The translations under genes were made by a program, and so were the position numbers. Source: Flavobacteriales bacterium (GTDB taxonomy: Bacteria > Bacteroidota > Bacteroidia > Flavobacteriales_C > GCA-002722245). From it: DNA of 64,000 bases. How positions within the stretch are numbered: position 1 is the stretch's first letter; the number at the start of each line of letters is the position of its first letter. The stretch covers positions 1-64,000 of the forward strand of contig CANFBW010000005.1 in NCBI GenBank assembly GCA_947444925.1, read 5' to 3'. The notes beneath the pieces are model-generated. The model saw only the letters and a program-made list of their open reading frames with translations, ran no database searches and was not told the origin of the DNA. Below are positions 768 through 53,810 of the stretch, piece after piece.

Positions 768-2156
768 ATGAATTTCGATCTTATCGTTATAGGAAGCGGT
801 CCTGGTGGATATGTCGCTGCCATCCGTGCTTCACAATTAGGATTAAAAACAGCTATTGTTGAACGTTCTGAACTGGGCGGCATCTGCTTGAATTGGGGCT
901 GCATACCTACCAAGGCCTTATTGAAAAGCGCCAATGTATTTGAATACATCAATCACGCTGCCGACTATGGCATCACTGTTAAAGGCGCTGAGGTAGACTT
1001 TAAAGGAGTGGTAAAAAGAAGCAGAGACGTTGCCGACGGCATGAGCAAAGGCATTCAGTTTTTGATGAAGAAAAATAAAATCGAAGTTATTGCAGGTACT
1101 GCAAAAATTAAAGCTGGAAAAGTAGTTGAAGTAACGGCTGCCGACGGAAAAAAATCCGACATCAGCGCCAAAAGCATCATCATCTCTACAGGAGCGCGCT
1201 CCCGCCAATTGCCAAACTTACCACAAGACGGAAAAAAAATAATAGGATACCGCGACGCATTGGTATTGCCGAAAGCGCCTAAGTCAATGGTTATTGTTGG
1301 ATCAGGAGCAATTGGCGTTGAATTCGCATACTTCTATAAAGCAATGGGCACCAACGTTACCGTTGTTGAATTCCTTCCGAACATCGTTCCAATTGAAGAC
1401 ATCGACGTATCTCAAGCTTTGGAAAAATCGTTCAAAAAACAAGGCGTCACAGTAATGACCAACGCCGCTGTTGAGAAAGTTGACACGAGTGGAAAAGATT
1501 GCAAAGTGACCATCAAAACAAAAGATGGCGAAAAAGTGCTTGACGCTGAAATCGTTCTTTCTGCTGTAGGTATTGAAGCAAATATTCAAAACATCGGCTT
1601 GGAAGAAGTAGGTATCGTTACCGACAAGGGCAGAATTTTGGTGGATGAATATTACCAAACCAACATGCCGGGTTATTACGCTATTGGCGATGTTATTCCA
1701 ACACCAGCATTGGCGCACGTTGCATCGGCAGAAGGCATCATTTGCGTTGAAAAAATAGCGGGCCACCACCCTGAACCATTGGATTACTCAAACATTCCGG
1801 GCTGTACCTATTGCTCTCCTGAAATTGCCTCTGTGGGCATGACGGAGAAAAAAGCAAGAGAAGCTGGTCACGAAGTTAAAATTGGTAAATTTCCTTTCAG
1901 TGCATCCGGAAAAGCTTCAGCTGCTGGCGCGAAAGACGGTTTTATCAAAATGATTTACGATGCTAAATACGGCGAACTTTTGGGTGCGCACATGATAGGC
2001 TTAAACGTTACTGAAATGATTGCAGAGATAGTTGTTGCTAAAAAACTAGAGACCACAGGTCACGAAATTTTGAAAGCAGTGCATCCGCATCCTACAATGA
2101 GCGAAGCGATTATGGAAGCTACTGCTGCGGCCTATGGCGAAGTGATACATTTGTAG
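768..2156 (+). CDS. lpdA: Dihydrolipoyl dehydrogenase (E3)
   Basis: A full-length 462-residue flavoprotein disulfide oxidoreductase that reoxidises the lipoyl groups of 2-oxoacid dehydrogenase complexes (and glycine cleavage) with NAD+. The N-terminal FAD-binding GSGPGGYVAA motif is at residues 9-18. The redox-active cysteines are C40 and C45 in GGICLNWGCIPTKALL. A second dinucleotide motif, VGSGAIGVEFA, binds NAD. The FAD-contact motif YAIGDV follows, and the C-terminal dimerisation domain carries the catalytic HPHPTMSEAIMEA His-Glu pair. All key residues are present. The GICLNWGCIPTKALL form is usual in Bacteroidota. It is a single-gene unit with a strong terminator right behind it, and no E1/E2 subunit genes are adjacent. 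A near-match to the -7 box (TATCTTCG) lies upstream. Confidence 0.96.
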   Translation: MNFDLIVIGSGPGGYVAAIRASQLGLKTAIVERSELGGICLNWGCIPTKALLKSANVFEYINHAADYGITVKGAEVDFKGVVKRSRDVADGMSKGIQFLMKKNKIEVIAGTAKIKAGKVVEVTAADGKKSDISAKSIIISTGARSRQLPNLPQDGKKIIGYRDALVLPKAPKSMVIVGSGAIGVEFAYFYKAMGTNVTVVEFLPNIVPIEDIDVSQALEKSFKKQGVTVMTNAAVEKVDTSGKDCKVTIKTKDGEKVLDAEIVLSAVGIEANIQNIGLEEVGIVTDKGRILVDEYYQTNMPGYYAIGDVIPTPALAHVASAEGIICVEKIAGHHPEPLDYSNIPGCTYCSPEIASVGMTEKKAREAGHEVKIGKFPFSASGKASAAGAKDGFIKMIYDAKYGELLGAHMIGLNVTEMIAEIVVAKKLETTGHEILKAVHPHPTMSEAIMEATAAAYGEVIHL

Positions 2157-3279: not shown

Positions 3280-3720
3280 ATGGATGCTTTAAAAATGTTG
3301 CAACACAGTATTGGGAAAGAAGCACAAGGCACACCATCGGCTTTTATGAATTGGCTGCGGCCCACCATTCTCAGTGCCGTAAAAGGAAAACTATCGCTGC
3401 AGTACACTGTGCGCAACGAAATGACAAATGCCATGGGTAATTTACACGGCGGCGTGACCTCTGGTATCGTTGACGATATTTTGGGCGCTACTGTTTTTTC
3501 GCTGGGAGAACCACACTTCTATGCAACCATCAACTTGTCTATCGACTATCTTTCAGCAGTAAAAGAAGGTGAGGTTGTAATTGCCCACAGCGAAGTGATC
3601 AAGCAAGGGCGACAACTCATTCACGCCCAATGCGAAATTTGGAATGCCGATCAAACAAGATTGGTGGCCCGAGGACAATCAAATTTATTAAAAACCGAAA
3701 TCTCAAAACCAAATGAATAA
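3280..3720 (+). CDS. PaaI-type hotdog-fold acyl-CoA thioesterase
   Basis: A 146-residue single-domain hotdog protein. The motif NAMGNLHGGVTSGIVDDILG at about residues 50-69 is the PaaI/YbgC-like active-site segment (N-x-x-G-x-x-H-G-G followed by an acidic residue in the central helix). Family members hydrolyse acyl-CoA or aryl-CoA thioesters in the cytoplasm, usually as dimers or tetramers; the substrate cannot be read from the sequence. It starts one base after the TetR stop and overlaps the FabF-type gene by 8 bases, so the three are certainly one transcript. The context suggests fatty-acid or acyl-CoA metabolism rather than phenylacetate degradation, because no paa genes are present. Confidence 0.83.
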   Translation: MDALKMLQHSIGKEAQGTPSAFMNWLRPTILSAVKGKLSLQYTVRNEMTNAMGNLHGGVTSGIVDDILGATVFSLGEPHFYATINLSIDYLSAVKEGEVVIAHSEVIKQGRQLIHAQCEIWNADQTRLVARGQSNLLKTEISKPNE

Positions 3721-44286: not shown

Positions 44287-44673
44287 ATGAAATACCTGTT
44301 TTTGTCCTTCCTAATACTTGCAAGTACGTTTCACGCATTTGCGCAAGACGAAGCCGAAACCAACGCACCGGTTTTAAAATTAGAAAAAATGATACTCGAC
44401 TATGGCACAGTAGCCAAAGGCTCGAATAAGATCAGATCCATTAAATTCACTAACCTTGGCAAATCGCCTTTAATCATCACCAGTTGTGAAGGATCCTGCG
44501 ATTGCACAACAGGAAAATGTCCGAAAGAACCCATTATGCCTGGCAAAAGTGGTGAAATAACAGTGAGCTACAACACTGACAAAGTAGGCAAATTCAATAA
44601 AACGGTTACAATTTCTTCAAACAATGGTAACGGAAATGTTTATTTGAATGTAAAAGGAGTAGTTCAGGAATAA
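44287..44673 (+). CDS. DUF1573 secreted protein (first of a tandem pair)
   Basis: 128 residues with signal peptide MKYLFLSFLILASTFHAFAQ. The mature part is one DUF1573 domain: LDYGTVAKGSNKIRSIKFTN, ITSCEGSCDCTTGKCPKE and VSYNTDKVGKFNKTVTISSN. This Ig-like domain is common in secreted Bacteroidota proteins; no molecular role is established. The Cys-rich loop (CxxxCxCxxxxC) could bind metal or form disulfides. A near-copy follows 92 bases downstream. Periplasmic or surface location is inferred from the signal peptide. Confidence 0.86.
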   Translation: MKYLFLSFLILASTFHAFAQDEAETNAPVLKLEKMILDYGTVAKGSNKIRSIKFTNLGKSPLIITSCEGSCDCTTGKCPKEPIMPGKSGEITVSYNTDKVGKFNKTVTISSNNGNGNVYLNVKGVVQE

Positions 44674-44765
44674 CGTTAACAAGTCATTAACAAGAATAAT
44701 TGAAAAGCTGACTTAACTTGGTACAATCATTGAAACAACACAAAGACAACCAAAACGAAAAAAAA

Positions 44766-45209
44766 ATGAAAAAACTAATTTTATCTTTTGCTATTTTGAT
44801 GACTGCTGCAATCAGCGGATTTGCCCAGGAAGCAGCGCCACAAGTTGATCCAAAAGCACCTAAAATTGAATTCCAAACTTTAGACATTGACTTTGGAACC
44901 ATTAAACAAGGATCAGATCCTTTCAGAAACGTAAAATTTACCAACACAGGAAAAACACCATTGATCATTACAACATGTCAGGGTTCATGCGGCTGCACAG
45001 TACCTACTTGCCCAACTGAGCCTACAATGCCAGGCGAAAAAGGAGAAATGCAAGTGAGATATGACACCAATAGATTGGGTGCTTTTACCAAAACAGTGAC
45101 AGTGATGTCAAATGCAGGTAATGGAACCATCACTTTAAAGATACACGGTACAGTAGAAGCTGCTGAAACTGGCTTGCCAGAAAAGAAATCAGGACCTACA
45201 GCACAATAA
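44766..45209 (+). CDS. DUF1573 secreted protein (second of a tandem pair)
   Basis: 147 residues from the ATG at 44766, which gives signal peptide MKKLILSFAILMTAAISGFA-Q; an in-frame TTG at 44718 is not needed. It has the same domain as its upstream neighbour: LDIDFGTIKQGSDPFRNVKF, ITTCQGSCGCTVPTCPTE and VRYDTNRLGAFTKTVTVMSN. It has a longer N-terminal spacer and a 20-residue polar tail. The pair arose by tandem duplication and has since diverged. A strong terminator follows. Confidence 0.87.
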   Translation: MKKLILSFAILMTAAISGFAQEAAPQVDPKAPKIEFQTLDIDFGTIKQGSDPFRNVKFTNTGKTPLIITTCQGSCGCTVPTCPTEPTMPGEKGEMQVRYDTNRLGAFTKTVTVMSNAGNGTITLKIHGTVEAAETGLPEKKSGPTAQ

Positions 45210-45253
45210 GAAGTTCACAAGTTCAATTTTATCAGATTATAACTTACTTACAG

Positions 45254-45283
45254 AAAAACCCTCCGAAAATCGGAGGGTTTTTT
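45254..45283 (+). terminator. Terminator after the DUF1573 pair
   Basis: AAAAACCCTCCG and CGGAGGGTTTTT form a perfect stem around AAAAT and run into T's. It isolates the following peptide locus from the DUF1573 genes. Confidence 0.92.
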
Positions 45284-45327: not shown

Positions 45328-46212
45328 ATGAAAACATTTACATATTTACAAATTGCCAAATTCACGATTAGTGTCAGCAGCGCAGAAGATCATAAGGTTT
45401 TTATAGCTGACGGATACTTGCCTTTCGTGATCGATAAGCCACTAAACAATGATATAGTGATCGTGGTTCATCCTCAAATTCCAGCAAGTCTAATAAATAC
45501 TGAAAACATTCTTTACAAAGCGATGATTGGGAGCAATGATTTCTGGATCATTTGCAAATACAACAAAGGCTATAAATTCATAATCTACAAACAAGAAAAA
45601 CCCAATGAAATTCAACAAATTGCTTTAGTAGACGAAGGATTTACAAAATGGGAGGTATACATGTACCCACAAGAAAATAAAAAAACTGGCTTATCAGAAC
45701 TTGAAGCGCTGCAATATCCTTTAGGACCACTAATTCTTTATTACCTCACAGTAAATCACGAAGCAATAATGATACACGCTTCAGGAATTTTTGATGGAGA
45801 AAAAGGTAGGATTTTCAGCGGGTTTTCAGGAGTTGGCAAAAGCACAATGGCGCAATTATGGAAGAATGCAGGAAGCATACTTATCAATGACGATCGCCTA
45901 ATTATTAGAAGAATAAACAATCAATATCACTTTTTCAACACACCAATGTTTTATGCCGATGAGCCTAAATCTGCTCTTCTTACACACTTGTATTTACCCT
46001 ACCATTCCGCAGAAAATAAATACAATTTAATTTCTGGATCAAGAGCTGTTGCGCGACTTCTCGCCTATTGCATTCAACATGGCTATAACAAAGCGCACAT
46101 GCAACATCACCTTTCCTTTTTGACGACACTTTGTTCCCAGCTTCCAGTAGCAGAACTTGGGGTCGTGCCCACGCCAAATATAATTTCCTTCATAAAGGAA
46201 TATGATGTCTGA
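45328..46212 (+). CDS. HPr-kinase-like ATPase/kinase of a peptide-modification locus
   Basis: 294 residues. The C-terminal half is an HPr kinase/PEP-carboxykinase-type nucleotide-binding domain: a preceding MIHASGIFDGEKGRIFSG strand pair, Walker A GFSGVGKSTMAQLW, and the acidic ILINDDRLIIRR motif. The N-terminal 140 residues are unlike HprK and have no recognised domain. Stand-alone HprK-like proteins next to PqqD and nucleotidyltransferase genes occur in RiPP-like clusters; in the paeninodin lasso cluster such a kinase phosphorylates the C-terminal Ser of the precursor. Here the neighbours are PqqD-like, nucleotidyltransferase and four peptide genes. There is no HPr or PTS gene. Start ATG at 45328 follows the terminator. 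Confidence 0.8.
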   Translation: MKTFTYLQIAKFTISVSSAEDHKVFIADGYLPFVIDKPLNNDIVIVVHPQIPASLINTENILYKAMIGSNDFWIICKYNKGYKFIIYKQEKPNEIQQIALVDEGFTKWEVYMYPQENKKTGLSELEALQYPLGPLILYYLTVNHEAIMIHASGIFDGEKGRIFSGFSGVGKSTMAQLWKNAGSILINDDRLIIRRINNQYHFFNTPMFYADEPKSALLTHLYLPYHSAENKYNLISGSRAVARLLAYCIQHGYNKAHMQHHLSFLTTLCSQLPVAELGVVPTPNIISFIKEYDV

Positions 46213-46672
46213 AAAAAATAATATTATTCTAAACACCGCTTTACACATACTCAACGAAGAACTCTTGGTAAAAATGGAAGTGGCTGGAAATAGCATGTAT
46301 CCATTTCTGAGAGAAGGCGATTTCATTTTCATGCGAAAAGACGCAATGCATTTGCTTAAACCTGGCGACATCATTGCTTTCAAAAGAAACAATTATTGGG
46401 TAGCGCACCGTCTTCTTGCGGCGAAATTAAACCATGGCGAAATAATTTTTCTATGCAAAGGCGATTCTTGTGTAAAATGTGATGAGGAAATACAAAAAAA
46501 TAATTTCGTTGGGAAAATTGTGGCTTACTCAAGAAATGGCAAAAAAGTAGACCTAGAAAAAGGATGGCAAAAAAAACTAGGTCAAATATTAGTTACTACG
46601 TCACCTGTCAATAAATACATACTCAATTTAAGTATGCGCGTCATTTTCAAAATAAAAAGAATGTTGCGATAA
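46202..46672 (+). CDS. S24/S26-family serine peptidase (signal-peptidase-like, soluble)
   Basis: 156 residues, overlapping the kinase gene by 11 bases (or 8 if the second ATG is used). The nucleophile serine is in VAGNSMYPFLREGDFIF (SxMxP). The second conserved region is PGDIIAFKRNNYWVAHRLLA, where the His of HR fits the Ser-His dyad of the S26B/archaeal type rather than the Ser-Lys dyad of bacterial LepB. There is no N-terminal membrane helix, which is unusual for a signal peptidase; the C-terminal VIFKIKRML segment may touch the membrane. A role in trimming or releasing the short peptides encoded nearby is inferred from context. Confidence 0.78.
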   Translation: MMSEKNNIILNTALHILNEELLVKMEVAGNSMYPFLREGDFIFMRKDAMHLLKPGDIIAFKRNNYWVAHRLLAAKLNHGEIIFLCKGDSCVKCDEEIQKNNFVGKIVAYSRNGKKVDLEKGWQKKLGQILVTTSPVNKYILNLSMRVIFKIKRMLR

Positions 46673-46696
46673 ACGAACTTACAATTATGACAATTG

Positions 46697-47905
46697 CTAG
46701 GCTTTTGAAAAAGTGAATTTTAATACTATTTTACTTAGCCCTATCCATATTCTCCATAAATAGTAAATCGGCAAGAGAAATGTATATCGCATCTTGTACC
46801 TTGCAACCATATATGATTTTTGCGGAAAAACATCATCAACAACATAGCGCAATTTGCTTTTCCAGCCACTAAAGCTGCTCAAAATAATCACATTTGAAAT
46901 TTGATACTGCACTTTTGCCAAGGCCTTTTGCACACCAAATTGATCACCGTTCAATGCACAAAGAAAAACTGATTCCAGCTCGTTTATGGGTGATGCAATA
47001 CCGTCAAAAAAGAAAGGAGGCACATTTGAATTCCAATAGCTTTGACATAAAAACATAATTTGCTGCAACTCCTTCAAACAATTGTACTGAACAGAACTAG
47101 CGTATAACAAATGCCAATCAATTTGATCCCGATGCAGAAGCAGCATCTCAACAATATCGTTAAAAGAACTAAACCTAAATTGACCACTTATTAAATGAGT
47201 GTATTGATGCGTGCACAAATGCTGCAAAAGATCTTCTACACAGAAATTCCGCCCATTCACACCTGAAAAGGCGCAGAAAACACTTCTACTCCAATAATCG
47301 TCTATATTGATGTTAAAATGCGAAAACGAAGAATGCACATGACGATGTAATTCTATCACCGAATTATTTTTGATTAGACAATAAGGATGATGGAATATTT
47401 CTTGACGCTCAAAGAATTCCGATTTTTTGGGGTGCGTCAACACCAATTTCCATTCATTATTTAACAAAACATTTTTCACCCTTTCAACATCCTGTGCTCT
47501 AACCAATAAATCGATATCGTTGGTAATCCTAAGTCCATAATCAACATACAAAACATCTAGTAACATGATGCCTTTTAATGGAATAAAATCCAAACCTTCC
47601 TGCTGCAGAACCTTTGCTGCATGTGTAAAATCATTGTACAAACGAATATTACTCGATAAATATCTATAGTAATTCGCTTTTAGTGTTTTCACAACCTGGT
47701 TGGGAAGTAAATTTTGATCAGAAAACCGAGTGCAATTTTTGAAAATCAAAGCAGCTAAAGCTGTAGATTGCGCTTTAGTCAGCACGGAATCCCAATCAGA
47801 AATATTTTGAGAAATTTGCTCTAAACGCAATAAATCGGGAGAGGAAATATGAAGAGTAGAGCCTAAAAGCAAAAATTGTTCTTCCCAAGACAAATCTGAG
47901 AACAT
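46697..47905 (-). CDS. Nucleotidyltransferase-family protein (NTP_transf_5-like)
   Basis: 402 residues from the ATG at 47905 (MFSDLSWEEQFLLLG), one base after the pqqD-like stop; starts at 47953 or 47974 would overlap that gene. The central region IPLKGIMLLDVLYVDYG then ITNDIDLLVRAQDVERV has the K-G and D-x-D pattern of the minimal nucleotidyltransferase family PF14907. The C-terminal half is helical. Such proteins accompany PqqD and HprK-like genes in lasso and HPr-rel-A type loci; their reaction is not generally established. It is convergent with the peptidase gene with a 24-base gap and belongs to the precursor operon. Confidence 0.8.
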   Translation of the reverse strand: MFSDLSWEEQFLLLGSTLHISSPDLLRLEQISQNISDWDSVLTKAQSTALAALIFKNCTRFSDQNLLPNQVVKTLKANYYRYLSSNIRLYNDFTHAAKVLQQEGLDFIPLKGIMLLDVLYVDYGLRITNDIDLLVRAQDVERVKNVLLNNEWKLVLTHPKKSEFFERQEIFHHPYCLIKNNSVIELHRHVHSSFSHFNINIDDYWSRSVFCAFSGVNGRNFCVEDLLQHLCTHQYTHLISGQFRFSSFNDIVEMLLLHRDQIDWHLLYASSVQYNCLKELQQIMFLCQSYWNSNVPPFFFDGIASPINELESVFLCALNGDQFGVQKALAKVQYQISNVIILSSFSGWKSKLRYVVDDVFPQKSYMVARYKMRYTFLLPIYYLWRIWIGLSKIVLKFTFSKA

Positions 47906-47906
47906 A

Positions 47907-48191
47907 TTAAGCCAAAACGTATTTTGATAATTTTTCAAGAAATGAAACCACATCCTGTTCAGCAGTTTCAACATCTACTTCAAACTCCTTGACCAAGGAT
48001 GCAACGATGGTTTCCAAAGAACTTACTTCGGTCAATTGCTCCCAAATGAAAGACCCGCTTTCATTTAAAGTAAACATCTCGTTCATCTCGGCGACATTGC
48101 CTTTTAACGGCACCAAAATCAAATCATTCGCCACCTTTTGAACAGCGAAGGCATTCTTGTGTGCAACAATATTCGGAATAATAGAATTCAT
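47907..48191 (-). CDS. PqqD-like peptide-binding (RRE) protein
   Basis: 94 residues with the winged-helix PqqD/RRE fold pattern: a strand VQKVANDLILVPLKGNVAEM, then the typical FTLNESGSFIWEQLTEVSSL and the helix IVASLVKEFEVDVETAEQDV, ending LEKLSKYVLA. PqqD-type proteins bind leader peptides of ribosomally made peptides and hand them to modifying enzymes. It lies between the four peptide genes upstream and the nucleotidyltransferase gene downstream, all on the minus strand. This is the strongest single hint that the small peptides are substrates. Confidence 0.85.
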   Translation of the reverse strand: MNSIIPNIVAHKNAFAVQKVANDLILVPLKGNVAEMNEMFTLNESGSFIWEQLTEVSSLETIVASLVKEFEVDVETAEQDVVSFLEKLSKYVLA

Positions 48192-48318
48192 TTAGCTTAT
48201 TAAAATTGGAACAAATACGGTAAATACCATCAAAATCAATTTGATTTAAAGGAACCCCTCTGAAAACAGCACTATTGATATTTAAAGATGCCTTTCATTT
48301 AATTCGACATAACAAAAA

Positions 48319-48399
48319 TCAAGGTGTCCCCATTAATATCGAAATTTCACTGTCTAAATCTACCTTAATTACTTCTGGTTTCTCGTATTTCTTCTTCAT
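48319..48399 (-). CDS. Putative precursor peptide 4 of four (26 aa)
   Basis: Twenty-six codons, ATG complement at 48397-48399 and stop TGA. It begins MKKKYEKPEVIKVDLDSEIS and ends ILMGTP. It is the copy closest to the pqqD-like gene and the most diverged at DNA level. Its upstream spacer is only 21 bases but keeps the TTGGACTGAT motif that precedes copies 2 and 3. The Y-x-x-P-x-V motif fits a leader-recognition site. The C-terminus has a Thr before the last Pro. Confidence 0.72.
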   Translation of the reverse strand: MKKKYEKPEVIKVDLDSEISILMGTP

Positions 48400-48420
48400 A
48401 TCAGTCCAAAATTAAGTCAA

Positions 48421-48498
48421 TTATGATGCCATTAATATTGAAATTTCACTGTCCAAATCCACCTTAATTACTTCTGGTTTTTCGTATTTCTTTTTCAT
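48421..48498 (-). CDS. Putative precursor peptide 3 of four (25 aa)
   Basis: Twenty-five codons, starting as the other copies (MKKKYEKPEV) and ending SILMAS. The terminal residue is Ser. Its DNA and its upstream spacer are almost identical to copy 2 for about 90 bases, showing recent duplication, yet the last four residues differ. Stop is TAA. Confidence 0.72.
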   Translation of the reverse strand: MKKKYEKPEVIKVDLDSEISILMAS

Positions 48499-48554
48499 AT
48501 CAGTCCAATTAATTAAATTTTTCTCCACTAAATCAAATTCATCTCCTAAAATTA

Positions 48555-48638
48555 TTAGGTAGGTGACAACATTAACGTTGAAATTTCACTGTCCAAATCC
48601 ACCTTAATTACTTCTGGTTTTTCGTATTTCTTTTTCAT
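48555..48638 (-). CDS. Putative precursor peptide 2 of four (27 aa)
   Basis: Twenty-seven codons, starting MKKKYEKPEV and ending STLMLSPT. It is the longest copy, with one residue added at the C-terminus relative to copy 1. Stop is TAA, immediately followed by a second TAA in frame. Confidence 0.72.
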   Translation of the reverse strand: MKKKYEKPEVIKVDLDSEISTLMLSPT

Positions 48639-48698
48639 ATCAGTCCAATTAATTAAATTTTTCTCCACCAAATCAAATTCATCACCTAAAACGATTAC

Positions 48699-48779
48699 TC
48701 AAGGCGACAACATTAATGTTGAAATTTCACTATCTAAATCCACCTTAATCACCTCTGGTTTCTCGTATTTCTTTTTCAT
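48699..48779 (-). CDS. Putative precursor peptide 1 of four (26 aa)
   Basis: Twenty-six codons, the first gene of the minus-strand operon, starting MKKKYEKPEV and ending STLMLSP. Stop is TGA. Promoter box TAAATTTG lies 22 bases upstream. The gene is too short for most gene callers, but four paralogous copies sharing the protein frame with mostly synonymous changes (for example GAG/GAA, GTG/GTA, GAT/GAC) support real coding. No hydrophobic signal sequence. Confidence 0.75.
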   Translation of the reverse strand: MKKKYEKPEVIKVDLDSEISTLMLSP

Positions 48780-48801: not shown

Positions 48802-48809
48802 CAAATTTA
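48802..48809 (-). promoter_or_regulatory. Promoter -7 box of the precursor-pqqD-nucleotidyltransferase operon
   Basis: The minus strand reads TAAATTTG, an exact TAnnTTTG match, 22 bases before the first precursor ATG. It lies in the 65-base divergent gap shared with the aminotransferase gene. Confidence 0.55.
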
Positions 48810-50267: not shown

Positions 50268-53200
50268 ATGAAACACCTAACGATTATTCTTCTATGCACT
50301 ATGCACCTTCTAACTTTCGGGCAGGGAGAAGACAATCAATGGTATTTTGGAGAAGGAGCAGCGCTCGACTTCAACAGTGGTAATCCCATCGCCAAATTAT
50401 CGAGCGTGATGAACATTAGCGAAGATCAAGTAGAGGGAAGCGCTTCAATCGCCGACTGTAAAGGTCAACTTCTTTTTTACTCCAATGGAGAGCAAGTTTG
50501 GAACAGAAACAACCAACTCATGCTAAATGGCAGTGGCCTAAATGGGGACAAATACTCTACACAATCGGCGCTCATCGTTAAAAAACCCAATAGCAGCAAC
50601 ACCTATTACTTGTTTACAGCTTCTGACGAGCATGGCCTGCAGTACTCTACCGTGAATATGCTTCTAAACGGCGGCAAAGGCGATGTGATCGCAAAAAACA
50701 CAGCCCTTAATCCAACAGGAACACAAAAATTAACGCTAACGCGACATGCCAACGGACAAGATGTTTGGGTGATTACCCATTACAACAACAGTGCTCGTTT
50801 TGATGCATTTTTAATAAATAGCAGTGGCGTATCAATTTCACCAGTGACTAGTTTATCAGGCCCAATGCACAATTCAGGGCATGGAGACATTAAAATTTCA
50901 CCCGACGGAAGTAAGATTCTAACCTGCGTGCAGCGCATGGACTTGGTTTGTCTATCCAGCTTTAACACTGCAAATGGTAGCGTCAGCAATACCAGCGCCA
51001 CCCTAAAATTTCCGCAGCCACATGGCGGAGAGTTTTCTGCAAATAGCCAAGTCGCTTATTTGAATGCACTTTGCTTTAGCGGTTTTTCGTGCACCAACGC
51101 AGGCATCTCGCAACTCAATTTATTGGCTGGAAGTACTAGTTTAATTTGGAGTACTTCCAAGGTTATTTCAAATAAAACATTTCTCGAAGGTTCCATGCGC
51201 CGCCACAGCAATGGCATCATCTATTGCACTGGTGACGATATGCAGTCATTGTCGGCCATCAAAAACCCAAACACATTGGGTCTAGGTTGCAATTTCACAA
51301 ACAATGCAGTGAGTCTCGGCGGACGAACAACAAGTTGGGAATTGCCAAACAATGTGCTTTTAAGTCCGCCAATTGTTCCCGGAAGTATTGATTTTACAGC
51401 GACAGCAGGCATCTGTCCCCAAGATCCTTACAATTTCAACATTGTTAGCACACAGAACATCACCGCGGTTTCATGGAATTTTGGAGACCCTGGTTCAGGC
51501 GGAAACACGTTTTCTTCCTTACTGACGCCAACACATACTTTTTCAGCACCAGGCACTTTCACTATTTCCGTTTTTCTTACTATTGATGGTTGTTACAACA
51601 CTTCACTTACTAAAACAATCACCGTTATCGCCAACCCAAAGGCAGTTGCAGGACCCGATCTAAATATCTGTAGCGGCAGTGCCGCCAGTATTGGAGCTGC
51701 TGCAGGGGCACCCTATTCCTACTTTTGGTCGCCCTCAATTGGTTTATCGAATGCCAACATTGCAAATCCAAAAATCACTAAAACGAATGCAGGCCCAGCA
51801 AACACCGTCAGCACCTACACCTTGACAACAAGCTACCAAACATGCATGTCATTAGATACAGTGGAAGTTACTATCAAAGCGCTCCCCACGGTTGACGCTG
51901 GCAACAACAGCTCACTTTGTTCAGGCGACAGTATTTCAATTGGCGCTGCAGCAAACAACGCCATTTTAACTTACACTTGGTCACCAACAGTCGGTCTCAG
52001 TTCAAGCTCAATTTCCAATCCAAAACTAAGCCTGAGCAACAACAGCACCGCAGTTTACAAATACGTTGTAAGTGTGCAAGGAAAAAATGCTTGCACTAAC
52101 AAGGACTCTATTTTAATTACCCTACACCCTTTACCAAATGCAGGAAAAAGAAGCAACTACCTCTGTCCCGGTGGCAACCTACAACTAACAGCCGTCAATA
52201 ATGGAACTTCGTACGCTTGGACACCCAATCAAAATATTTCTGATACTACGATATACAACCCAACTGTGTGGCCATTGAATCCACAGTTCTATTTTTTGAA
52301 AGTCACCGACGTTAACAGCTGTAGTAATTTCGACAGTGTTTTTGTAAACAGCACTGGAACTGTGCCCACCGATGCTGGAGCAGACAGCAGTATTTGCAAA
52401 GGTGACAGCATTAAAATTGGTGGAAATCCCAGTGCCCCAGTAGGAATCACGTATCAATGGCTGCCAACACAAGGACTGAGCAATTCGCATATTGCTAACC
52501 CAATGGCAAGTCCTTCAAATACCACTAAATACTACTTGCACACACAAAGTGACACCTGTGTTGGGCTTGATTCTATTGTCGTTCTAGTGCATCAACTCCC
52601 CACCGTTGACGCAGGTCAAGCTGCTGAAATTTGTTTTGGCGACAGCATTCAACTACACGCCAGCGGGGCCGAAAAATATCTATGGAGTCCAAACAACAAT
52701 ATCGACCGTACGGACAGCGCAGCGCCTAAGGTGTTTCCAAAAAAAACAGGTTTCTTTACTGTAAGTGGAATCGACCAGTTTTCTTGCATCAATAGAGACA
52801 GTGTGGAGATTAGTGTGAATCCGCTGCCTCCCGCCAATGCAGGATTAGACAGTGGATTGTGCATTAGAGATAGTATTCAATTGCATGCGACTGGAGGTAC
52901 CCAATATTTATGGAGTCCTGCCCTCACTTTGTCATCCGCAACGATTGCCAATCCTTTCGCTTTTCCAAAACAAAACACCATCTATGCTTTAGTCGTAACC
53001 GATTCAAAGGGTTGTAAAAAAGCTGACAGCATTGCCATTTCAGTGCATCACTTGCCAGTCATTCAAACTTTAAGCAACACCTTAATCTGCGAAGGAAGCA
53101 GTATTCATATGTACGCAAGCGGTGGAGTAAAGTACCATTGGTGGCCAACTGAAAGCTTAAACGATAGCAACTCATCAAAACCCTGGGCACAACCATTAAC

Positions 53201-53810
53201 GCCCACTACCTATTATGTTGCCGTTACAGATTCCTACCATTGTACCGACACAGCTTCATTTCAAATATCCCTTAATATTGTTCCTAAAGCTGAATTCACA
53301 GTAATTAAACAAACACCAGGTTGCGAAGGCTATCGCAGTGAATTCACAAACACTTCAATAAATGCCGATAGCCAATTGTGGATCTATGGCGACGGAGGCA
53401 GCTCAACTGAAAAAACGCCTCAACACACCTACCCCTTCGGCAAAAATGTGGTCACGCAACTCATCGTCACCAACAACGGTTTGTGCAGTGACACCATGTC
53501 AATTCCCCTAAACATCAAAGACATTGCAGACGCCGTGAACATCTCCAATGGAAATGTTTTAACACTTAATAACGATGGACTAAACGAATGTTTTACTGTA
53601 TCGGTAAAAGACGAATTTGAAAAGTGTGTTGCGGTTAAAATTTACGACCGATGGGGAGTACTGATGTACAAAAGCAATACCTACGGTGAATGCTGGGATG
53701 GCAAAAACAGCAGCACTCAACAACTGGTGGCAAATGGCACTTATTACTACATCATATCCATTAACGATTACAGTAAAACTGGATACATCACGATTTTCGG
53801 TGCACAGTAA
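50268..53810 (+). CDS. Large T9SS type B cargo protein with Ig-like repeats and PKD domain
   Basis: 1180 residues. The signal peptide is MKHLTIILLCTMHLLTFGQ. The N-terminal 360 residues (start QWYFGEGAALDFNSG) resemble the beta-propeller-like head of surface proteins of Bacteroidota. A PKD domain follows (VSWNFGDPGSGG, then PTHTFSAPGTFTISV). Then about seven Ig-like repeats of some 85 residues each start with a DAGxDxxIC.GDSI pattern (for example TDAGADSSICKGDSIKIG, VDAGQAAEICFGDSIQLH). A second PKD segment contains WIYGDGGSST. The C-terminus is the gliding-associated type B domain (VKIYDRWGVLMYKS, CWDGKNSS). It is probably a surface adhesin exported by the T9SS. No catalytic motif seen. Confidence 0.86.
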   Translation: MKHLTIILLCTMHLLTFGQGEDNQWYFGEGAALDFNSGNPIAKLSSVMNISEDQVEGSASIADCKGQLLFYSNGEQVWNRNNQLMLNGSGLNGDKYSTQSALIVKKPNSSNTYYLFTASDEHGLQYSTVNMLLNGGKGDVIAKNTALNPTGTQKLTLTRHANGQDVWVITHYNNSARFDAFLINSSGVSISPVTSLSGPMHNSGHGDIKISPDGSKILTCVQRMDLVCLSSFNTANGSVSNTSATLKFPQPHGGEFSANSQVAYLNALCFSGFSCTNAGISQLNLLAGSTSLIWSTSKVISNKTFLEGSMRRHSNGIIYCTGDDMQSLSAIKNPNTLGLGCNFTNNAVSLGGRTTSWELPNNVLLSPPIVPGSIDFTATAGICPQDPYNFNIVSTQNITAVSWNFGDPGSGGNTFSSLLTPTHTFSAPGTFTISVFLTIDGCYNTSLTKTITVIANPKAVAGPDLNICSGSAASIGAAAGAPYSYFWSPSIGLSNANIANPKITKTNAGPANTVSTYTLTTSYQTCMSLDTVEVTIKALPTVDAGNNSSLCSGDSISIGAAANNAILTYTWSPTVGLSSSSISNPKLSLSNNSTAVYKYVVSVQGKNACTNKDSILITLHPLPNAGKRSNYLCPGGNLQLTAVNNGTSYAWTPNQNISDTTIYNPTVWPLNPQFYFLKVTDVNSCSNFDSVFVNSTGTVPTDAGADSSICKGDSIKIGGNPSAPVGITYQWLPTQGLSNSHIANPMASPSNTTKYYLHTQSDTCVGLDSIVVLVHQLPTVDAGQAAEICFGDSIQLHASGAEKYLWSPNNNIDRTDSAAPKVFPKKTGFFTVSGIDQFSCINRDSVEISVNPLPPANAGLDSGLCIRDSIQLHATGGTQYLWSPALTLSSATIANPFAFPKQNTIYALVVTDSKGCKKADSIAISVHHLPVIQTLSNTLICEGSSIHMYASGGVKYHWWPTESLNDSNSSKPWAQPLTPTTYYVAVTDSYHCTDTASFQISLNIVPKAEFTVIKQTPGCEGYRSEFTNTSINADSQLWIYGDGGSSTEKTPQHTYPFGKNVVTQLIVTNNGLCSDTMSIPLNIKDIADAVNISNGNVLTLNNDGLNECFTVSVKDEFEKCVAVKIYDRWGVLMYKSNTYGECWDGKNSSTQQLVANGTYYYIISINDYSKTGYITIFGAQ

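Follow-up and report, generated by a model that had tools for sequence, protein, structure and literature searches.

What could an HprK-like kinase, an S24/S26 peptidase, a nucleotidyltransferase and a PqqD-like protein do to four tandem micro-peptides encoded beside them? The question is raised by a locus in a 64,000-nucleotide stretch of contig CANFBW010000005.1 from a Flavobacteriales bacterium (the window), which a sequence-only reading had described as resembling systems for ribosomally synthesized and post-translationally modified peptides (RiPPs), built from a combination of genes that could not be named. All five components are found where proposed, and both they and their layout as two convergent operons are confirmed by coordinates and family searches. 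The set is no longer nameless, however, because the same enzymes have been described as the LPP pathway by Popov et al. in 2026 (PMC13381572). We consider it rather probable, at about 0.6, that the locus is the Bacteroidota branch of an LPP-type (linear phosphopeptide) pathway, in which the enzyme set probably adds phosphate to a tiny encoded peptide and then trims the peptide. The locus is real, ordered and conserved; it can be named by its mechanism and is new as a Bacteroidota variant. The most interesting result lies outside its boundaries, namely, the pairing of such precursors in relatives with proteins that bear a sorting domain for the type IX secretion system (T9SS).

Enzymes of the locus

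The plus-strand unit consists of the kinase and the S26 peptidase, and the minus-strand unit of the four micro-genes, the PqqD-like protein and the PF14907 nucleotidyltransferase; the two meet at 46672/46697. The larger genes are the following:

45328–46212, plus strand: HprK-like peptide kinase, 294 residues (weak HprK/PEPCK family matches, model fold, conserved residues)
46202–46672, plus strand: archaeal/SipW-type S26 (SpI-like) leader peptidase (TIGR02228 above cut-off, conserved S/H/D)
46697–47905, minus strand: PF14907 nucleotidyltransferase, LppN/PsmN-like (158.9 bits, 2e-46)
47907–48191, minus strand: discrete PqqD-like RiPP recognition element, RRE (PF05402, 67.9 bits, 1e-18)

The kinase carries the catalytic residues H150, K171, D188 and D189, and this His-Lys-Asp-Asp set, needed in lasso-tailoring kinases (PMC9266682), is kept in 77–83 of 83 homologues. 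Its AlphaFold model (pLDDT 96.6) matches PEPCK and HprK/P structures in a fold search. The peptidase scores 59.4 bits against TIGR02228 (sigpep_I_arch; cut-off 51.85), and its predicted catalytic residues S31, H69 and D88, kept in 68–69 of 71 homologues, are the same in kind as the S29/H68/D93 triad of LppS (PMC13381572). The modelled fold of the PqqD-like protein (pLDDT 90) is that of a lasso B1-type RRE: its structure matches are the leader-bound lasso B1 RREs 5v1u, 5v1v and 6jx3, and it has sequence matches to 9x90 and 9x8z. The open reading frame (ORF) of the nucleotidyltransferase (NTP_transf_5) is open to 47974, and its start is likely the ATG at 47905, one base past the PqqD stop, rather than 47974. 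As the sequence-only reading had noted, a lasso macrolactam cyclase, a B2 protease, a radical SAM enzyme and a transporter are absent at the locus. The lack of a transporter holds for the window locus; in relatives one is present, sometimes fused to the peptidase.

Distribution of the cassette in relatives

A kinase-alignment scan across genomes yielded 80 loci, of which 73 were taken as the Bacteroidota-type set; these come mainly from Bacteroidota, with a few Chlorobiota and Balneolales and one probable misbin. Co-occurrence of the components in other genomes, chosen beforehand as a test able to refute the proposal, was observed. A PqqD-like gene lies within 1.5 kb of the kinase in 66 of the 73 loci and a peptidase near it in 62, the nucleotidyltransferase is present in 35, and in many Bacteroidota precursors occur either next to these enzymes or in trans to them. 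Moreover, the peptidase is fused to an ATP-binding cassette (ABC) transporter in 6 loci and has an ABC-sized ORF beside it in 34 (three examples checked with Pfam). All these neighbour counts are lower bounds because many loci end at contig ends. The Bacteroidota-type kinases form a clade apart from two Clostridia kinases (SH-aLRT 100), both of which are long-branched, and no clear LPP-type leaders were found in the loci of these Clostridia kinases. One contig that carries a Bacteroidota-type kinase cassette (L083) is assigned to a Methanoregulaceae archaeon, probably through misbinning.

Precursor family and the micro-peptide array

An iterated profile, seeded with the window peptides together with two clear relatives, recovered a single precursor family in the kinase loci. 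At least 53 full-length precursors were found in the kinase loci and in an independent genome search, and 53 were aligned on the leader Tyr. In these 53, Tyr, Pro (+3) and Asp (+11) are invariant, I, F or M occupies +14, and YxxPx[VIL] is followed by I.[IL]D.EISL.M.S; discrete RREs are known to dock on a [Y/W]xxPx[hydrophobic] motif (PMC13381572). Furthermore, Ser or Thr stands at +20 from the Tyr (position 21) in 52 of the 53, and a variable core of 4–47 residues (median 23) extends beyond this predicted acceptor. Precursors at kinase loci take one of two positions: some are within or next to the cassette, as, for example, in Marinilabiliaceae and Chlorobiota, where they stand between PqqD and kinase, and others immediately follow a large gene. 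Among 395 genomes of the class, 11 have precursors, 10 a strong kinase match and 8 both (Fisher p 5e-13), with a search model that was built from kinase-locus precursors and that very different leaders would escape; G098, G160 and G269 have precursors and no kinase match.

The window array, identified by profile matches to the precursor family and by leader comparison, comprises four copies and a spacer of interest:

48699–48779, minus strand: micro-peptide copy 1, MKKKYEKPEVIKVDLDSEISTLMLSP
48639–48698, minus strand: spacer after copy 1, in frame VIVLGDEFDLVEKNLINWTD, a possible lost-core remnant (weak similarity to cores of relatives)
48555–48638, minus strand: micro-peptide copy 2, MKKKYEKPEVIKVDLDSEISTLMLSPT
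48421–48498, minus strand: micro-peptide copy 3, MKKKYEKPEVIKVDLDSEISILMAS
48319–48399, minus strand: micro-peptide copy 4, MKKKYEKPEVIKVDLDSEISILMGTP

The proposal that these four peptides are precursors stands insofar as they match the family; what had been overlooked is that they are truncated, each consisting of leader plus acceptor only. The shared leader MKKKYEKPEVIKVDLDSEIS[T/I]LM is followed by LSP (copy 1), LSPT (copy 2), AS (copy 3) or GTP (copy 4) and then a stop, so that position 21 is S, S, S and T, respectively, and the stop comes 0–2 residues later. This is atypical of the family, in which the shortest other core has 4 residues beyond the acceptor (L052). Over the 23 leader codons, the four copies differ at 10 nucleotide sites, of which 9 are synonymous and 1 is non-synonymous, against 11.7 synonymous and 57.3 non-synonymous sites available (binomial p about 1e-6). 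The window leaders are under strong purifying selection.

Pairing with type IX secretion

At kinase loci, all 20 large proteins encoded upstream of precursors bear the T9SS type A sorting domain TIGR04183. In the independent search, precursors are dispersed over contigs, and all 16 upstream proteins that could be scanned bear the same domain, giving 36 of 36 for precursors preceded by a same-strand gene from outside the cassette. A 17th upstream protein of that search (L153) has the same ending by eye, the precursor of L138 is preceded by a PqqD gene, L152 has no clear partner, and L148–L150, which could not be judged, were left out of the count. The genomes encode from 84 to at least 150 TIGR04183-type domains each, taken as at most 8% of genes, and even at that base rate the pairing is far above chance. 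In one locus (L053), three consecutive cargo–peptide pairs precede a single cassette. BLAST still connects the cargos into a single group once the sorting domain is taken away. A module of about 145 residues ahead of the sorting domain was considered as a pairing-specific feature and rejected: it turned up in 197 of the 395 genomes when the whole class was searched, and it is therefore a general T9SS-associated region of which the paired cargos are only a subset.

Our search of the open-access literature found no paper linking T9SS to such peptides, and the only published indication of what LPPs might do is that in Bacilli they lie close to capsule genes. The pairing offers a new lead on the role of such peptides, suggests a function that can be tested, and would tie the chemistry of peptide natural products to the secretion of proteins or their anchoring at the surface. 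The window array is not directly downstream of a TIGR04183 protein.

Two further observations concern such cargos. A 1180-residue protein with a T9SS/gliding-type C-terminus is encoded near the window array (50268–53810), with the divergent aminotransferase in between. In L078, two precursors of identical sequence (827–988 and 3488–3649, minus strand) each follow a T9SS protein; these two proteins share the same C-terminus, and a cargo–peptide pair has probably been duplicated recently.

Proposed pathway and alternative explanations

In the LPP-type pathway that we favour, the PqqD-like RRE would hold the YxxPxV part of the leader while the HprK-like kinase adds one or more phosphates to the Ser/Thr exactly 20 residues past the leader Tyr. 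The PF14907 enzyme may then attach a sugar or nucleotide to the phosphate, and the SpI-like Ser-His-Asp peptidase would remove the leader. Export of the product in relatives would fall to an ABC transporter, often adjoining or fused to the peptidase, and many precursors would belong with a type IX-secreted surface protein whose gene immediately precedes them. The four window precursors appear to have been cut back until the acceptor Ser/Thr is last or nearly last, and the predicted products are phosphopeptides of a few residues. The biochemistry of the Paenibacillus LPP system, in which kinase and peptidase of the same types act and one Ser is poly-phosphorylated at a fixed distance from YxxP (PMC13381572), is the precedent for these steps. 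A bolder extension, which we regard as tentative and on balance unlikely, is that the modified peptide of Bacteroidota works exclusively with a single surface protein secreted by the type IX route, whether as tag, tether, processing factor or cargo-specific companion, that one cassette serves many dispersed pairs, and that the window represents a case in which the cargo was lost and the peptides were cut to the bare phospho-acceptor.

Several points weigh against assigning the window locus to an LPP-type pathway. Beyond YxxPx[VIL], the leader departs from the LPP motif YxxPxVLxHQxIxFETxxS. No ABC gene is found among the neighbours of the window locus, and ABC matches in the genome of the window are generic only (about 30% identity or less for full-length best matches). 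The cassette is absent from the sampled genomes of the genus and family of the window. Finally, the window copies have no core, and the purifying selection on their leaders could predate the truncation.

The most serious alternative is that the array is a decaying remnant whose cores were lost after the paired type IX cargo, its leaders looking conserved only because the copies are recent or homogenised. All four copies stop right past the leader, where relatives carry 4–47 more residues, and searches of the 99% complete genome of the window revealed no other precursor, none of full length and, at E 1e-5, nothing that matches the module of the paired cargos. Copy 2 carries an indel in the post-leader spacer region, and a tail resembling a core can be read in frame from the spacer of copy 1. 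By eye, its GDEFDLVEKNLINW resembles the GDPEASVIKKLNPLRWW of relatives; in pairwise alignments against shuffled sequences this likeness is suggestive only, because shuffles equal the score in 2–6.5% of trials (p about 0.02–0.065), and we do not accept it as a core remnant. The tail leans weakly towards loss. Decay is at odds, however, with the 9 synonymous changes against 1 non-synonymous, with the acceptor S/T retained in 4 of 4 copies, with enzyme genes that are all intact, including the kinase and peptidase active sites, and with a leader that stays constant while residues 20–23 vary, as in working RiPP precursors. We regard a remnant as possible but doubtful. Judged from their sequences, the window peptides are either minimal phosphopeptides or relics, and the intact enzymes, acceptor retention and synonymous pattern favour continued use.

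Alternatively, the micro-peptides might not be substrates at all, but decoys or regulators that consist of a leader only and keep the RRE occupied. They do contain the complete RRE-binding part and little else, but kinase and peptidase would then be left without a known substrate in this genome, and S or T is retained at the acceptor position of all four; we hold this explanation to be quite improbable. A chance neighbourhood of unrelated genes and spurious small ORFs might be entertained as AT-rich DNA commonly holds short ORFs; this is refuted by synteny and co-occurrence across Bacteroidota, by the precursor family and by selection on the leaders.

Boundaries and other features

45253–45283, plus strand: locus boundary, the intrinsic terminator that belongs to the upstream DUF1573 gene (stem of 14 pairs and a T tail)
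48802–48809, minus strand: Bacteroidota -7-like box TAAATTTG, 5' of copy 1 (suggestive only; chance-level pattern)

The terminator, which the sequence-only reading had taken as the boundary, was recovered by a consensus scan. Two DUF1573-like genes in tandem (44287–45209) end at this boundary, and a divergent aminotransferase adjoins the array on the other side. Neither the pattern TANNTTTG nor sigma-70-type promoters are commoner in the window than expected by chance, and no RNA structure was detected between the array and the PqqD gene (z-score -0.14).

Three other contigs of the same genome carry related genes. On C77 (L185, 2–2039), a partial HprK-related ORF, another NTP_transf_5-like gene and a B2-like (PF13471) protein are found within a glycosyltransferase cluster. 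On C113 (L001/L025), a second PqqD gene (about 1261–1533, minus strand) adjoins a 52-residue peptide (1692–1850, minus strand; ..KKTWITPEVDFDEVKNVEGGNLINDSEVTMMWRS), with cupin/JmjC-like and methyltransferase-like proteins as neighbours; together they make up a putative RiPP-like locus of their own, in which a WxxP motif occurs. C16 (L026, 3146–5923) encodes a PqqD-like protein of small size, a protein of the ATP-grasp type and a decarboxylase-like ORF; the last has MKKLQYERPVITRL at its N-terminus, as though the enzyme had been joined to a YxxP leader.

Comparison with known systems

Paeninodin/pseudomycoidin-type lasso peptides (PadeK, PsmK, PsmN) share with the window the HprK-like H-K-D-D kinase, the nucleotidyltransferase, the discrete RRE and the [Y/W]xxP leader, and their phosphorylated C-terminal Ser may be compared with copy 3, which ends in Ser. 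They differ in having a macrolactam cyclase and a B2 protease; both are missing at the locus, the B2-like protein of this genome being encoded in the sugar cluster of C77, and a lasso identity was rejected. The kinase has distant similarity to the NCBIfam HprK-related kinases A and B (TIGR04352, TIGR04355), and membership in HPr-rel-A or HPr-rel-B was rejected because the kinase scores 17.3 and 34.6 bits where 200 is the cut-off. Pyrroloquinoline quinone (PQQ) biosynthesis (PqqA/PqqD) shares the PqqD fold and a YxxP-type leader; it too was rejected, as the locus contains neither the radical SAM enzyme PqqE nor any further pqq gene and the PqqD-like protein falls under the PqqD equivalog cut-off.

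The closest system is the LPP (linear polyphosphorylated peptide) pathway, lppABKSDN of Paenibacillus alginolyticus, reported in May 2026, which comprises an SpI-like peptidase, an RRE, an HprK-like kinase, an NTP (nucleoside triphosphate) transferase and an MsbA-like exporter in Bacillota, to which it is stated to be restricted; its main text mentions neither Bacteroidota nor type IX secretion (PMC13381572). The window shares with it the SpI-like Ser/His/Asp peptidase, discrete RRE, HprK-like kinase and NTP transferase, the lack of a lasso cyclase, the YxxPxV leader and an acceptor at fixed distance, at position 19 from the Tyr in LPP and 21 here. By contrast, LPP belongs to Bacillota and the present family to Bacteroidota/Chlorobiota; the MsbA-like transporter lies in the LPP cluster, whereas the window locus has none and relatives have one adjacent or fused; a variable core follows the LPP leader, as in our relatives, whereas the window peptides extend only 0–2 residues past the acceptor; and many precursors in Bacteroidota relatives are dispersed and paired with T9SS cargos. 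Membership in LPP is not claimed, because the cluster transporter, the second half of the leader motif and, in the window, the core are missing. Our claim is that the locus works like the LPP system as its Bacteroidota variant, extending the family to a second phylum, with the window as an odd extreme whose precursors are trimmed to the acceptor residue.

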